Below, piece by piece: positions 51,102-59,208 of a stretch of 64,000 nucleotides of DNA (positions are counted from its first letter, which is position 1; the number at the start of each line of letters is the position of its first letter). Source of the DNA: Epilithonimonas hungarica (GTDB taxonomy: Bacteria > Bacteroidota > Bacteroidia > Flavobacteriales > Weeksellaceae). Position numbers and translations under genes: made by a program. Under the pieces are notes generated by a model. That model ran no database searches and was not told the origin of the DNA. It saw nothing but the letters and a program-made list of their open reading frames with translations. The stretch is taken from NCBI RefSeq assembly GCF_900102265.1, contig NZ_FNBH01000001.1, forward strand, positions 124,001 to 188,000. Reading direction: 5' to 3'.

Positions 51102-51737
51102 TTAAGCAGTGGTACCGATGTACTGCGAGCTTGAGACGGTTTGCTCATCGTTTGACCGGAAGGCCATCCAAACATGGAGTGTTTTTTCCTGGAAATTGAT
51201 CGGCACAATGGCCGAGTAGGTAGCCTCCGAACGAATTGCTGCGTTCTCTATAAAGAATGTGAAATTTTCCCCTTCTGCTGCCAGGAGGATCTGGGCAAGG
51301 TCATTCTCTCTATCGACATTCCCTGCAGAGTTGTCCTGCCATGTGATATCTAATTTGTCTCCCGATAATTTTATCGAGAGCGGAATGGCTGCTAAAAGAC
51401 CTCCTTTTGAAAAAGCCAGAGCGGGGTAGTCCGGAGTAATGGATGAGGCTGCATAGTCTATTTTGAAGTTCTCCATCAGATTGGTCATTGCCAGATTATA
51501 GCAAGACCTCATCCCACTTCTGTTCCCGAAATGCCTGCAGGCATATCCTTTGTAAGACTGCATGAACTCTGCGCATCGTTTCATCCGGTTCTGGATGAGA
51601 AGCTGTTTGGCGGTTGGTTGAGCATTTCGTTTTCTCGGGCGAGTCCTTGTGATCTCGTTCCCATAGACGTTGGCCACCACGATACGTCCTGTACGTCCCG
51701 AAGTGCCTGATAATAATGAGTCATATAATTTTCCCAT
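51102..51737 (-). CDS. DUF6266 family protein
   Basis: The 211-residue protein starts GKLYDSLLSGTSGRTGRIVVANVYG, followed by RTRPRKRNAQPTAKQLLIQNRM, which is the conserved basic segment. The C-terminal half is predicted beta-rich (LDITWQDNSAGN, HVWMAFRSNDEQTVSSSQYIG). No signal peptide or membrane span is seen. The family is restricted to Bacteroidota and its function is unknown; the conserved basic N-terminal part with many Arg/Lys would suit nucleic acid or assembly contacts. GC content is clearly above that of the neighbours. A TACATTTG box lies at 51,808-51,801. A decayed tail of another copy occurs at 23,627-23,698. Confidence 0.8.
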   Translation of the reverse strand: MGKLYDSLLSGTSGRTGRIVVANVYGNEITRTRPRKRNAQPTAKQLLIQNRMKRCAEFMQSYKGYACRHFGNRSGMRSCYNLAMTNLMENFKIDYAASSITPDYPALAFSKGGLLAAIPLSIKLSGDKLDITWQDNSAGNVDRENDLAQILLAAEGENFTFFIENAAIRSEATYSAIVPINFQEKTLHVWMAFRSNDEQTVSSSQYIGTTA

Positions 51738-51800: not shown

Positions 51801-51808
51801 CAAATGTA
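51801..51808 (-). promoter_or_regulatory. -7 promoter box of the DUF6266 gene
   Basis: Read leftward the sequence is TACATTTG, an exact -7 match 64 bases upstream of the start codon. No TTG is present at the usual distance, so the promoter may depend on an activator or be weak. Confidence 0.5.
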
Positions 51809-51973
51809 TTATGGTGATACGACAGAAGTTGACGTGTTATTTTTTATTTTGGATTTTTTTATGAAAGGCACATGAAGTTTTAACAGGTCACTGGTTTTGT
51901 TTTCCCGCAGATCTCCATGATCTGGGCAGATCTATTTGTTTCTATGATTTTCTGTTAACATAATATGGAGTTT

Positions 51974-52061
51974 GTATATCCCATGTATATCCATTCTATA
52001 TCCAATTTATATCTATTCTATATCCTTTGTATATCCTTTGTTCGATGCTCGTTCGATGATT
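51974..52061. repeat. Exact 11-bp-period tandem array (8 units)
   Basis: Eight consecutive 11-mers fill 88 bases without any gap. Units 1-6 are variants of GTATATCCATT (GTATATCCCAT, GTATATCCATT, CTATATCCAAT, TTATATCTATT, CTATATCCTTT, GTATATCCTTT). Units 7-8 are GTTCGATGCTC and GTTCGATGATT. The array lies in the 512-base gap between the divergent DUF6266 and T9SS genes. The same gap also has CAGATCT repeated at 51,908-51,914 and near 51,927, a minus-strand hairpin at 52,181, and no gene. Confidence 0.9.
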
Positions 52062-52180
52062 GTTGTCAGATCTTGTCTTTTTATAAAAAAATGCTATTAA
52101 ATCCATTTAACATAATAAAAAAGCATGAAAAATATTTTGGATCCAGTAAAAAAACAATTAATTTTAGGAAAAAATAAAAA

Positions 52181-52197
52181 GCGACACGTTTTGTCGC
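52181..52197 (-). terminator. Orphan terminator-like hairpin on the minus strand
   Basis: GCGACA at 52,181-52,186 pairs with TGTCGC at 52,192-52,197. Read leftward the stem is followed by TTTTTATTTTTT, the form of an intrinsic terminator. No minus-strand gene ends here. It could end an antisense RNA from the T9SS gene or be left from a lost gene. Confidence 0.45.
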
Positions 52198-52249
52198 ATC
52201 TCCTTGCTATCATTGCATCGAGAGAATAACAATTAAAAAAACTCATAAC

Positions 52250-53902
52250 ATGAAAAGACTCAGCATCGGCGTGGGCATTCTTGTCCTGTGCCATGTCCAT
52301 GCCCAGAAGGTAAGCTGGCAAAAGAACATAGATTCCAATACCCAGGATTTCCTTTCCGGGCTTGCTGTCACGATAGACGGCCAATATTTGGTATCCGGAT
52401 CTTCCATCCAAAAGGATCAGAACCCAAGCTCCAATCAAAACAATGGTTACGATTACCATATCCTTAAACTCGACCAGCAGGGGCAGAAGGTCTGGGAGAG
52501 GTATTTCTCGGGTAATCGTCATGACTACCTCAGTTCCACCGTTTCCACTCAGGAAGGCGGTTTCCTGTTGGCAGGCACCTCGTATTCCTCATCGGTCCTG
52601 GACAAGAAGGACAAAGGCAATGGCTCTTCTGATATTTGGGTGATTAAAATAGATGAAAATGGCGAAGAAGAATGGCAGCAGACGATAGGAACGAGATACA
52701 GCGAAGAGGCCAGGAGCGTGACGCAGACGACCGACCAGGGCTATGTCATCGCAGGGAGCACGAACCACCCGAAATTGGGCTATGGTTCCAAGGATGTCCT
52801 TGTGACCAAACTTGACAAGACGGGAAAGGTCATCGTCCAGCTCATCCTGGGTGGCAAAGGCCTGGACGAGGTGGAGAAGGTGATACCTACAAAGGATGGT
52901 GGTGTTCTGATGGGTATCTATTCGAGAAGCGGGGCAATTAATGAAGAATTAAAAATTAATAATGAAGAAGGCTCAGCAGGTATAGATGCTTCGACTCCGC
53001 TCGGCATGACAGGCGAAGAGCCAATAACCACCAACTATCAACCAAAAACCACAGAAAATAATGGCGAGGGCGATTATTGGATCGTGAAGCTGGACAAGGA
53101 CAACAAGGTCCAATGGGAGAAGAACTATGGCGGAAGCGAGGACGACCATATCCGGACGTTGGCACTGACGGACTCGGGCTACATCATCGGAGGAGAGAGC
53201 AGGAGTGAGACCTCGGGAAATAAGAGAGCTAAGTTGGAAGAAGGAACTGATCTTTGGGTTTTGGCTTTGGATGAAGATGGCAATGAACAATGGCAGCAAT
53301 CCTACAACTTTAAGAACAGGGATGTAATGATGAGCCTTAATACCATTAAAAACTCAAACTCTGAGACCAAAGGCTTTTTGATCGGTGGTTTTACCCAGAC
53401 AGAGGGTAAAGTTCAAAAGAATGACGAGACATTTTGGATGTTGTATATCGACAAAGATGGCAAAGAGGTCTGGAGAAAATATGTAGAAGGCAAAGAAAAG
53501 AAGAACGAAGAAAGATTGACATCGGCGTTGCTTAACAGGGATGGTTCATTTGTATTGGCAGGGACTAGTGCAGAGGAAGTGGGCAAAGAAAACTGGAAAG
53601 TGGTAAAGCTGATGGATGGCGATATAGAAGATCTGATGGAGAACAAGGACATCCGGATCTACCCGAATCCGGTGAAGGAGTACTGTTATGTGGAACTCAG
53701 TTCCGAGTTCTTTGTTTCGGGTTCCGGGCAAGCAGATATCTATGTCTATGACATGACGGGCAAGGTGATACAGAAGTTACAAACAAAGAATAAGGTAACG
53801 AAGGTCGATACGAGTAAGCTTCCGCAAGGAGTATATATCATCAAGGCGAGTATCCCAACGCAACAGAACAAAAAACTAACTACTAAAATTGTGAAAGAAT
53901 AA
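52250..53902 (+). CDS. T9SS-secreted repeat protein
   Basis: The 550-residue protein has a signal peptide ending CHVHAQK. The body is built of repeats of about 50 residues, each with a D.W..KLD..G...W....G block and a DGGYVIAGS-type block (SSDIWVIKIDENGEEEWQQ, DQGYVIAGSTN, GDYWIVKLDKDNKVQWEKNYGG, DSGYIIGGES, TDLWVLALDEDGNEQWQQSY), probably a beta-propeller. The last 75 residues are a T9SS type A sorting domain (IRIYPNPVKEYCYVEL, ADIYVYDMTGKVIQKL, VDTSKLPQGVYIIKA). Residues of about 229-271 interrupt the repeat pattern and derive from dispersed DNA repeats. It is directly followed by the RHS-like gene after six bases, so the two are probably one operon. Confidence 0.88.
   Translation: MKRLSIGVGILVLCHVHAQKVSWQKNIDSNTQDFLSGLAVTIDGQYLVSGSSIQKDQNPSSNQNNGYDYHILKLDQQGQKVWERYFSGNRHDYLSSTVSTQEGGFLLAGTSYSSSVLDKKDKGNGSSDIWVIKIDENGEEEWQQTIGTRYSEEARSVTQTTDQGYVIAGSTNHPKLGYGSKDVLVTKLDKTGKVIVQLILGGKGLDEVEKVIPTKDGGVLMGIYSRSGAINEELKINNEEGSAGIDASTPLGMTGEEPITTNYQPKTTENNGEGDYWIVKLDKDNKVQWEKNYGGSEDDHIRTLALTDSGYIIGGESRSETSGNKRAKLEEGTDLWVLALDEDGNEQWQQSYNFKNRDVMMSLNTIKNSNSETKGFLIGGFTQTEGKVQKNDETFWMLYIDKDGKEVWRKYVEGKEKKNEERLTSALLNRDGSFVLAGTSAEEVGKENWKVVKLMDGDIEDLMENKDIRIYPNPVKEYCYVELSSEFFVSGSGQADIYVYDMTGKVIQKLQTKNKVTKVDTSKLPQGVYIIKASIPTQQNKKLTTKIVKE
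52935..53057. repeat. Dispersed repeats inserted in frame in the T9SS gene
   Basis: The segment consists of AATTAATGAAGAATT-type A/T repeats (52,935-52,969), a copy of the GAGC..GTCG element in reverse (ATGCTTCGACTCCGCTCGGC, beginning 52,986) and ACCACCAACTATCAACC (about 53,026-53,042). The same kinds of sequence occur between genes elsewhere in the window. Here they keep the frame open and add about 43 residues between two propeller repeats. Confidence 0.7.
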
Positions 53903-56990: not shown

Positions 56991-57365
56991 ATGAAAAATA
57001 TATTAAAAAATAAAAGCTTCAGCTTTAGTATCCATATTGTACAATTGTATAAGATCTTGACAGAGCATAAAGAATATGTTCTTTCCAAACAGTTGTTACG
57101 AAGTGGTACGGCTGTAGGAGCATTGATAAGGGAGGCTGAGTTTGCTCAGAGCCGAGCAGATTTCATCCATAAGCTCCATATCTCCCTAAAAGAAGCCAAT
57201 GAAACATTATACTGGCTGGAGCTACTTTACCAGACAGACCATATTGATGATGTACTTTTTGATGAGAACGCTTTTCTTGCCAAGGAACTTATCAGTATGC
57301 TCGTTTCTAGTATTAAAACCTCAAAAAAAGCTTTAAACCATGAAAAAACACAAAGATCAAAATAA
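56991..57365 (+). CDS. Four-helix-bundle protein (23S rRNA IVS-type family)
   Basis: The 124-residue protein is all-helical: FSFSIHIVQLYKILTEHKEY, LSKQLLRSGTAVGALIREAEFAQS (the conserved R.GTSVGA.I.EA-like block), RADFIHKLHISLKEANETLYWLELL. This is the TIGR02436-type four-helix bundle family, originally noted in rRNA intervening sequences and frequent in Bacteroidota genomes as single genes. It forms pentamers in known structures. Its role is unknown. It sits between the RHS-like and DUF6443 genes and its last 26 bases overlap the longest DUF6443 frame. The AT-rich repeat sequence forms its start. Confidence 0.88.
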   Translation: MKNILKNKSFSFSIHIVQLYKILTEHKEYVLSKQLLRSGTAVGALIREAEFAQSRADFIHKLHISLKEANETLYWLELLYQTDHIDDVLFDENAFLAKELISMLVSSIKTSKKALNHEKTQRSK

Positions 57366-57393: not shown

Positions 57394-58230
57394 ATGGAAC
57401 AAGGTTTTTCATTCTTCACTTTTAACTTTTCATTGAAGAAATATTTATCACTTTTCATTCTATACTTTTCATTATTCATTTCAGCACAGACCCAGACGGA
57501 GAACTATGTGCTCAGCACGACCTGCCTCACGGCGGACTGCGTGAAGAGGATGGAGGTCATCCAGTACTCCGACGGGCTGGGCAGGCCCAAGCAGATCCTG
57601 AATGTCGGCGCATCCCCCACGAGGAAAGATGTAGTGACCCATATCGAATATGACGGGCTGGGAAGACAGGTAAGGGATTATCTGCCTGTGCCACAGTCCG
57701 GGGCAAGCACCCGGAATATATATCCTGCAGCCAATGCGACCAATGCATCTATCTATGACAACGAGACCATCTATGGTGAGAAGATGATGGAGAACTCGCC
57801 GCTGGGCAGGATTCTTCAACAGACGCCACCGGGCAATGCCTGGCAGGGACATCCTGCCACGTTTGACTATAAGGGCAATGTGCAAAATGAAGTGCTGAAG
57901 TTCACCACCACAACGTCTGTCCAGAACGGTGCGAACTATGTGCAGTCCCTCGCCATCAGCGGGCATTACCCTGCCAAAAGTCTCTACAAGAACAAGGTGA
58001 CGGACGAGGACGGGAACACCACTTCCGAATATAAAAATGCACAGGGGCAGACCCTGCTTATAAGGAAAAGTGTCCTGATGGATCCCGTAGAAGGACCCTC
58101 CGGCGCTCCCGCAGGTCCCGGTGCGAACCTCGAGAATGTGGACACCTACTATGTCTATAACGAGTACGACCAGCTGGCCTTCGTGATCACACCGATGGCC
58201 TCCAGGGAACTGGTCATGTTTCAAAGTTAG
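57394..58230 (+). pseudogene. DUF6443/RHS N-terminal gene truncated by an IS element
   Basis: The frame is open from 57,340, but that ATG lies inside the preceding gene; the ATG at 57,394 is preferred. The first 32 codons give a Phe-rich signal peptide ending LFISAQ. DUF6443 follows (VLSTTCLTADCVKRMEVIQY, SDGLGRPKQILNVGASP, VVTHIEYDGLGRQVRDYLPVP, TPPGNAWQGHPATFDYKGN). The frame reaches YYVYNEYDQLAFVITPMAS, the point where RHS repeats begin in full-length homologues. It then runs into IS1-type end sequence at about 58,215 and stops at 58,230. Full-length members have roughly a thousand residues and an RHS core, so most of the gene is gone. The rest is not found beyond the IS. Confidence 0.8.
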
Positions 58231-58371
58231 TGATGAATATATTTTTAGATTTTAAGCTGTTGAAAATCAAGTAAAATAATAATTTTAAAGTTGTTAAACA
58301 ATGGTAGGTCTAGCCTACTATCGTTTGATTTTGTAGGTAAATGATGCCTTAAATGATTGAGGATCATAACA
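58215..58371 (+). mobile_element. Diverged left-end copy of the IS1-like element
   Basis: This 157-base unit aligns end to end with the next 157 bases, the true left end of the IS. Both begin with a CAAA.TTAGTGATG terminal-repeat sequence, contain TAAAATAATAATT, hold a hairpin with a five-base loop (here AACAATGGTAGG with CCTACTATCGTT), and finish with a transposase-like start (ATGATTGAGGATCATAACAG). The transposase start then runs straight into the second unit. It is a fragment of a related element joined to the intact one. Confidence 0.75.
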
Positions 58372-58452
58372 GGTGTTCCAAACTTAGTGATGGGTATGAT
58401 TATAAAATTTTAACCTATTGAAATCAGATAAAATAATAATTAAAAAATTTAA

Positions 58453-58489
58453 AAGCGAGAGTAGGAATAACCTACTCTCGCTTATTTTT
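58453..58489 (+). terminator. Perfect hairpin at the IS left end
   Basis: AAGCGAGAGTAGG pairs with CCTACTCTCGCTT around AATAA, a perfect 13-base stem, followed by ATTTTTA. It lies between the left terminal repeat and the transposase start. A structure here can stop outside transcripts from entering the transposase gene. Confidence 0.75.
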
Positions 58490-58509
58490 ACAGAAAAACA
58501 TAATTGTAA

Positions 58510-59208
58510 ATGATTCAAGGATATAACAGGTGTATCAAAGTTAGTGACACAGGTATCTGTCCCTTTTGCTATTCCGGAAAAATTATAAAGAATGGACATA
58601 CGAAAACGGGAAAACAACAATATTTCTGTAAAAGCTGTGATCAAAGATTTTTGGACTATTATTCATATAGTGCTTACAGGAAAGAAACTAATTTTCAAAT
58701 CGTACAACTGATAAAAGAAGGTCTTGGTATCCGCTCGGTTGCAAGAGTATTGAACATATCTGCCACAACAGTACTCAAAAGAATCCAAAATATTGCTGAG
58801 AATATTCGTATTCCTGTTCTGTTATTTGGAAAGACCTACGAACTGGATGAGATGCGATTTTTCATCAAAAAGAAAAGCAATCCGATGTGGCTGACCTATG
58901 CGATTGATAAAACGACCAAAAAATTTGTGGCCTTCTATATCGGCAGAAGAAATAACAGGACACTAAATGCCGTGATAAAAACATTGCTCAATGCCAAAAC
59001 AGAAAATATCTATACAGACAAACTGAGAAATTACCAATATCTGATTCCCGAAGACATCCATATTACGCAAAGATATGGGACCAATGGGATTGAGAGAAAA
59101 AATCTAAATATCAGAACCCATCTCAGGAGATTCGGGAGAAAAACCATTTGTTTTAGTAAAAGCATGAGAATCACCCAGGCAGTTCTGAAGATCTATTTTT
59201 GGTTATGA
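58510..59208 (+). CDS. IS1-family transposase
   Basis: The 232-residue protein is a single frame, unlike E. coli IS1, which needs a frameshift between InsA and InsB. A zinc-binding N-terminus (CPFCYSG and YFCKSCDQRF) and a helix-turn-helix (GLGIRSVARVLNISATTVLKRI) precede the catalytic domain. There DEMRFFIKKKSNPMWLTYAID contains the first Asp, IYTDKLRNYQYL the second, and GIERKNLNIRTHLRRFGRK the region with the catalytic Glu, followed by FSKS as in IS1. The first residues (MIQGYNRCIKVSDTG) overlap a third copy of the terminal-repeat-like sequence at 58,529. Confidence 0.93.
   Translation: MIQGYNRCIKVSDTGICPFCYSGKIIKNGHTKTGKQQYFCKSCDQRFLDYYSYSAYRKETNFQIVQLIKEGLGIRSVARVLNISATTVLKRIQNIAENIRIPVLLFGKTYELDEMRFFIKKKSNPMWLTYAIDKTTKKFVAFYIGRRNNRTLNAVIKTLLNAKTENIYTDKLRNYQYLIPEDIHITQRYGTNGIERKNLNIRTHLRRFGRKTICFSKSMRITQAVLKIYFWL

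Follow-up and report, generated by a model that had tools for sequence, protein, structure and literature searches.

Lambda Xis is among the precedents for loading of excisionase-type winged-helix proteins. Plasmid iterons of the ParR/RepB type consist of 11-bp direct repeats in tandem, to which an oligomerising protein binds. Phage 186 Apl occupies direct repeats spaced 10–11 bp apart, five of them at att and the other seven in the interval from pR to pL, and its binding is cooperative and accompanied by bending (PMC7498355). BldC binds direct repeats head to tail, with the number of repeats varying (PMC5859096), and RdfS forms superhelical filaments (PMC11963761). In the OmpR/PhoB family of response regulators, M. 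tuberculosis PhoP recognises 7-bp repeats with a 4-bp spacer (PMC4832192), and ArcA shows a diverse binding-site architecture (PMC3798270).

Here we analyse an eight-unit, 11-bp direct-repeat array in a 64-kb stretch of the Epilithonimonas hungarica genome (hereafter, the window). The array is a single instance of an undescribed DNA element that is widespread in Flavobacteria and goes with their DUF6266 genes. It represents a class of operator-like arrays, helically phased and specific to the DUF6266 subtype, which extends across the family. It differs from ParR/RepB iterons in that no partition or replication gene was noticed adjoining it and no plasmid matched it. Like the phage 186 Apl operators (PMC7498355), it has direct repeats at 10–11-bp spacing between two promoter-like sequences and, as we propose, an excisionase-type reader; unlike them, it is chromosomal and family-wide, its promoters are divergent, its words are subtype-specific and neither an integrase nor an attachment site is attached to it. 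The Streptomyces BldC operators resemble it in their head-to-tail order, their varying repeat number and their small MerR-like wHTH protein (PMC5859096), whereas BldC sites are 9 bp long, AT-rich and weakly specific and the units here are 10–11 bp long with near-invariant words. The OmpR/PhoB boxes (PhoP, ArcA, OmpR) are also direct repeats, of 7+4 or 6+4 bp, in multi-site arrays (PMC4832192, PMC3798270); here, in contrast, there are up to 10–14 units, two alternating words, words that are specific to the subtype and a linked regulator gene of the HTH_17 type.

From the precedents of Apl, BldC and RdfS, we therefore take the array to be an operator for a head-to-tail, DNA-bending wHTH protein between two divergent promoters, a reading to which we assign a probability of about 0.5. 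What is new is the system; the proposed binding mode is already known. The uncharacterised DUF6266 gene is common in Flavobacteria, and the array and the linked excisionase-like regulator give it a first testable regulatory context. The subtype words at fixed spacing also offer a natural series on sequence choice by small winged-helix proteins of the Xis/BldC kind, a question raised by the merely weak sequence reading of some known members.

The array in the window and its flanks

The array lies at positions 51974 to 52061 on the plus strand and was recognised in the sequence, by Tandem Repeats Finder and by comparison with shuffles. The sequence-only reading of this DNA had described eight gapless 11-mers, six of the TATATCC type and then two of another word, and this description is accurate: TATATCC-type words start at 51975, 51986, 51997, 52008 (TATATCT), 52019 and 52030, and directly after these six units TTCGATG starts at 52041 and 52052. 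With T for TATATCC, t for the TATATCT unit and F for TTCGATG, the order on the plus strand is T T T t T T F F, or F F T T t T T T when read toward DUF6266, and the 8 units keep a strict 11-bp spacing with zero indels. Tandem Repeats Finder gave a score of 77 at period 11 and of 89 at period 22, the latter being the top of its 38 rows for the window. With three or fewer mismatches, TATATCCNNNNTATATCC has 21 matches against 7.8 ± 2.5 expected, a count reached by 0 of 100 shuffles. A coding repeat is rejected, as the earlier reading had argued, because the period of 11 is not a multiple of three and single units are gained and lost; a structured RNA or riboswitch was also rejected (fold z-scores 0.03 and 1.07, and no Rfam family at gathering score).

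The DUF6266 gene (PF19781, E 7.9e-18; subtype MGKLYDSLLSGTSGRTG) occupies 51102..51737 on the minus strand, and a T9SS-secreted protein with a C-terminal sorting domain (type A, by domain match) is encoded at 52250..53902 on the plus strand. These were the neighbours named by the earlier reading, and with both domains and strands confirmed, the gap between them is divergent. The array is upstream of both genes, 237 bp from the DUF6266 start and about 190 bp from the T9SS gene. On the DUF6266 side (minus strand), the -33 region of a putative promoter contains an imperfect palindrome, CGACAGAAGTTGACG (51820..51834), and its putative -7 box, TACATTTG (51801..51808), matches TAnnTTTG, the -7 consensus of Bacteroidota promoters. 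On the T9SS side (plus strand), the palindrome CGACACGTTTTGTCG (52182..52196) lies in the -33 region of a putative promoter with the putative -7 box TATCATTG (52208..52215), which is conserved as GCTATNATTGCA in paralogues and relatives. Both promoter-like units consist of the TGTCG of the palindrome, 11 bp and then the -7-like box, and CGACAGAAGTTGACG and CGACACGTTTTGTCG are the only two such palindromes in the window, one on either side of the array. Therefore, the array stands between two divergent promoter-like units.

Some further features of these surroundings were noted. The flanking palindrome CGWCANNNNKTGWCG has about ten occurrences in the genome, including ones in front of a further T9SS paralogue (C5:1595674) and within a cluster of genes at C1:790008-802074. 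At about 58212-59208 of the window, an IS1-family element (PF03400, E 2e-23) truncates an RHS-like gene; three array copies, L011, L034 and L052, likewise adjoin the end of this element, GGTAATGTTCCAAAGTTAGTGAT, which in L052 has diverged. A 23S rRNA-intervening-sequence ORF (PF05635) is found at 56991-57365, between two RHS-like genes.

Copies of the array and the anatomy of its units

The same words in the same 11-bp register are found at three sites in the E. hungarica genome. The copy at C5:14674 is a partial duplicate adjoining cydA, in which most of the T9SS gene is lost, and that at C7:3983-4033, upstream of a paralogous T9SS gene, has the word order T T F T T F F with the 11-bp period retained. 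Among relatives, TATATCCN4TATATCC was found in 9 of 23 genomes of the genus and a stricter pattern in 15 of 148 genomes of the family, from 5 genera, with 0 control hits in either search; the named matches are Epilithonimonas species and MAGs labelled Chryseobacterium. Same-spacing arrays, which the sequence-only reading proposed to look for in relatives, are thus present there, and the array is not unique. A tight family search for the AT-rich head described below together with the array overlooked most arrays, as the gap can differ in length by one base.

Anatomy was scored in 23 distinct arrays with 150 steps between neighbouring words. Exactly 11 bp separate the words in 113 of these steps and 22 bp in 9; the 8- and 14-bp steps are mostly relaxed words scored out of register, and L030 has one 10-bp step. 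A unit is a 7-bp word, one free base and TT[G/C]. Because the T unit is TATATCC-N-TT[G/C] and the F unit TTCGAT[A/G]-N-T[T/C][G/C], the linker NTT[G/C] is common to both. Only 1 of the 11 positions is truly free, namely N, with 0.01-0.04 bits (0.02 bits beside the T word); the T word has 1.55-2.0 bits per base and is near-invariant within its own type. The earlier suggestion that spacing is conserved is therefore borne out by the 113 of 150 steps, but spacing alone is not what is kept, since the words matter too.

Unit number, which had been put forward as a point of comparison, does differ in whole units between loci and ranges from 3 to 10. L020, L034 and L052 have 10, 9 and 8 units, respectively, the T's at the head dropping out one by one, and the orthologous cydA site has 8 units in G001 and G022 and 3 in G021. 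Such exact 11-bp steps between close relatives, together with the near-perfect copies in L116 and a 108-bp duplication in L030, could reflect neutral tandem duplication (a VNTR), in which the array would have grown by replication slippage and would have no function. We consider this quite improbable: the words are near-invariant across genera while one adjacent base per unit is fully free, different words share one spacing and one position with respect to a single gene family, and the mosaic order of the two words is retained, slippage explaining copy number only.

Several observations concern the sites of the copies. In L011 (G000:C5:14500-15050), part of the complete divergent promoter element has been copied and joined upstream of cydA, with the DUF6266-side promoter pointing at cydA. 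This cydA-pgi site is empty in G002 and G011, and in G001, G021 and G022 genes that appear ter-like by eye lie beside the array at the cydA site. The flanks of L049 are mosaic in comparison with L020 and L030: its upstream half is that of one locus type, its downstream half that of another, and the two meet at the array, which looks like a point of recombination between paralogous loci.

Within the genus, nearly all such arrays are preceded by an AT-rich head, TGTTAACATAATAT (form TTTAACATAATA), here at 51953..51966 on the plus strand; a second copy of ATTTAACATAAT lies downstream of the array (52105..52116, plus strand). As TTTAACATAATA is similar to an XerD arm in inverted orientation, as arrays of this kind are used by excisionases, and as the arrays occur at recurrent chromosomal sites with different cargo, empty sites and mosaic flanks, the array might be a site of site-specific recombination or a mobile-element end (Xer/dif, or tyrosine-recombinase arm sites) that swaps T9SS/RHS cargo. 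We regard this as very unlikely. The XerC half is absent, and the 12-mer ATTTAACATAAT occurs at 23 places in the genome (L065-L087; 1 in the reversed control), mostly away from arrays and often intergenic; homologous recombination between paralogues explains the mosaics, and no integrase was noticed adjoining. With only an XerD-like half and the 12-mer mostly elsewhere, TTTAACATAATA was rejected as a XerD/dif site. Phage and plasmid collections gave no DNA match to the array and no DUF6266 protein match, and an origin of the array from a phage or plasmid was rejected on this ground.

DUF6266 subtypes and the linked HTH_17 gene

DUF6266 was found in 22 of the 23 genus genomes searched and in 35 of 110 family genomes, and it is carried by 14 of the 15 genomes in which TATATCC arrays occur, its presence in the fifteenth, G149, being not established. 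Of the neighbours for which enrichment had been suspected, DUF6266 is upheld, and T9SS and RHS genes are the usual neighbours only in this genus; across the family, the partners of the array are DUF6266 and an excisionase-like HTH gene. Other DUF6266 subtypes have their own words at the same phasing upstream (CCTATAGAAAG, GGTACAGAATA, GATACAGAACG, CATCGAACAGT, CCGAAGAAGAC and TATCCAAAGCC), and the A[G/C]AA at the end of most of these 11-bp words is complementary to the linker of the window array. Nearer the promoter, other subtypes have 10-bp units (GGTCAAAACC, GTGGACAAAA and GGTAAAGTTG). Repeats about one helical turn apart, as in operators of wHTH filaments, are thus found at 11 bp and, in other subtypes, at 10 bp.

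The phasing was measured in the 330 bp upstream of the DUF6266 start. The best lag was 10, 11, 20 or 22 in 39 of 49 such regions against 93 of 490 shuffles, and in 47 of 167 control upstream regions from the same loci (controls that include array loci); shared ancestry among the 49 regions means that these counts do not represent independent events. Lags of 8-9, 12-13, 14-15 and 16-17 showed no excess upstream of DUF6266. Pairs of F words at 11 bp occur in 19 of the 49 regions and in 0 of 490 shuffles. The longest array seen is a 14-unit 10-bp array, GTGGACANNN, upstream of DUF6266 in L094. In the MATFNKGILGGF subtype (L095-L112), also upstream of DUF6266, CGAAGAA words are inverted on both sides of AAAAAACATCTTTTTT, forming a large inverted repeat whose arms are not always paired; an RNA stem was rejected for this hairpin, as by eye the arms of L105 no longer pair fully and the DNA words are kept.

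A gene for a small HTH protein of about 86-102 aa is found just beyond the array in 23 of 49 DUF6266 loci, upstream of the DUF6266 array and either on the same strand or divergent, although the window genome as a whole has only about 8 HTH_17-like genes; in about half of the DUF6266 loci, no HTH gene was detected within the stretch examined. The cassette HTH proteins match Pfam HTH_17 (E 9.9e-10 and 3.3e-6), one of them matches the excisionase family TIGR01764 under its cut-off (E 8.5e-5), and a cassette HTH protein has a weak match (0.025) to a PDB chain named Gp37. In the gaps spanning HTH gene, array and DUF6266, the top lag is 10, 11, 20, 22 or 30 in 27 of 33. The window's own words are seen between HTH and DUF6266 genes in other genera, in G083 (L153) and G047 (L236), and beside an HTH gene in G108 (L235); within the same genus, G015 and G020 (L208 and L209) combine an HTH gene and an array in F F T order with a DUF6266 gene of the window's subtype.

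Candidate readers of the array

We propose that the array is a row of in-phase binding sites for a small winged-helix protein of the excisionase/MerR-like HTH_17 type, which would load head to tail with one subunit per helical turn. The loaded protein may form a curved, bent filament between the divergent promoters and thereby control transcription of DUF6266 and its divergent neighbour. The array is part of a cassette present across the family, made up of an HTH_17 gene, an 11-bp array, often followed by a 10-bp array, and a DUF6266 gene, with a different repeated word in each cassette subtype. In the genus of the window, the HTH gene beside this array is absent, with a T9SS/RHS module in its place, and copies of the array persist at several chromosomal sites. 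The suggestion in the sequence-only reading of a protein on one face of the DNA is supported, the binding itself being our proposal, and a purely structural element with no sequence-specific reader is not supported. Intrinsic curvature through phased A-tracts would not discriminate here, since a repeat of 10-11 bp would score whatever its sequence.

Beside the window array there is no HTH gene. The window genome has no close match to the cassette type, its best (E 1.6e-12) being to a general HTH_17 gene. In G022, a one-contig genome with intact arrays, the HTH match is weak only (E 4e-4), so that in this genus the reader may differ or the arrays may be relics. Word type correlates with HTH distance at 0.66 in a plain comparison, a correlation that is not significant after removing DUF6266 distance (partial Mantel 0.08, p 0.07), and the HTH protein is not upheld as the reader by co-variation; against DUF6266, the partial Mantel value is 0.55 (p 0.0002). 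With no HTH neighbour at the window array, and a word type that follows DUF6266 better than HTH, the array may instead be read by DUF6266 or by some other protein.

Another candidate reader is DUF6266, alone or in a complex, either to regulate its own gene or as a protein associated with the chromosome; the role of the HTH protein would then be accessory. DUF6266 is the constant partner: 14 of the 15 genomes that have TATATCC arrays carry it, compared with 35 of 110 across the family sample. The correlation of word type with DUF6266 distance, once HTH distance is taken into account, points the same way, and the DUF6266 N-terminus is basic. We nevertheless judge this unlikely. Closer physical linkage alone could yield the stronger correlation, and the cydA-site arrays persist without an adjacent DUF6266 gene. 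A PDB profile search recognised no DNA-binding fold in DUF6266; a neogenin chain was its weak match (E 0.25), which probably reflects an FN3-type domain. The AlphaFold model, built from two sequences, is of too low quality for use (pLDDT 45). PHROGs and PADLOC searches for DUF6266 gave nothing useful, and a literature search found no paper naming it.

The geometry of the array also fits exactly that of operators for two-component response regulators of the OmpR/PhoB family, with 7-bp words and 4-bp spacers (11 bp) or a 6+4 arrangement (10 bp), and the 10-bp units GGTAAAGTTG in L121 resemble CpxR/OmpR sites. However, none of the array neighbours inspected stood out as a response-regulator gene and it is HTH_17 that is linked in 23 of 49 loci, and a genome with different words at different loci would call for several cognate regulators. 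A regulator of this family therefore seems to us an unlikely reader.

We tentatively suggest, as a possibility somewhat on the doubtful side, that DUF6266 cassettes constitute a diversifying DNA address system in which the subtype word and its cognate reader co-diversify across the phylum. Each subtype would have its own word repeated at one-helical-turn spacing and a reader encoded in the cassette, which in some genomes could also reach orphan arrays of that word in trans. Orphan arrays, with the window's words away from DUF6266, are present in G047, G068, G083 and others. In G083, the variant F word TTCGGTG is found in both the cassette and the orphan arrays, the word being TTCGATG elsewhere, as expected if one trans factor reads all of a genome's arrays; shared descent within the genome is an alternative reason.

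As to the wider neighbourhood, the DUF6266 cassettes of L095-L112 and L138-L145 are often near genes that by eye resemble those for Cas9, type I restriction-modification, a Dam-like methylase and a GIY-YIG nuclease, which suggests defence islands.
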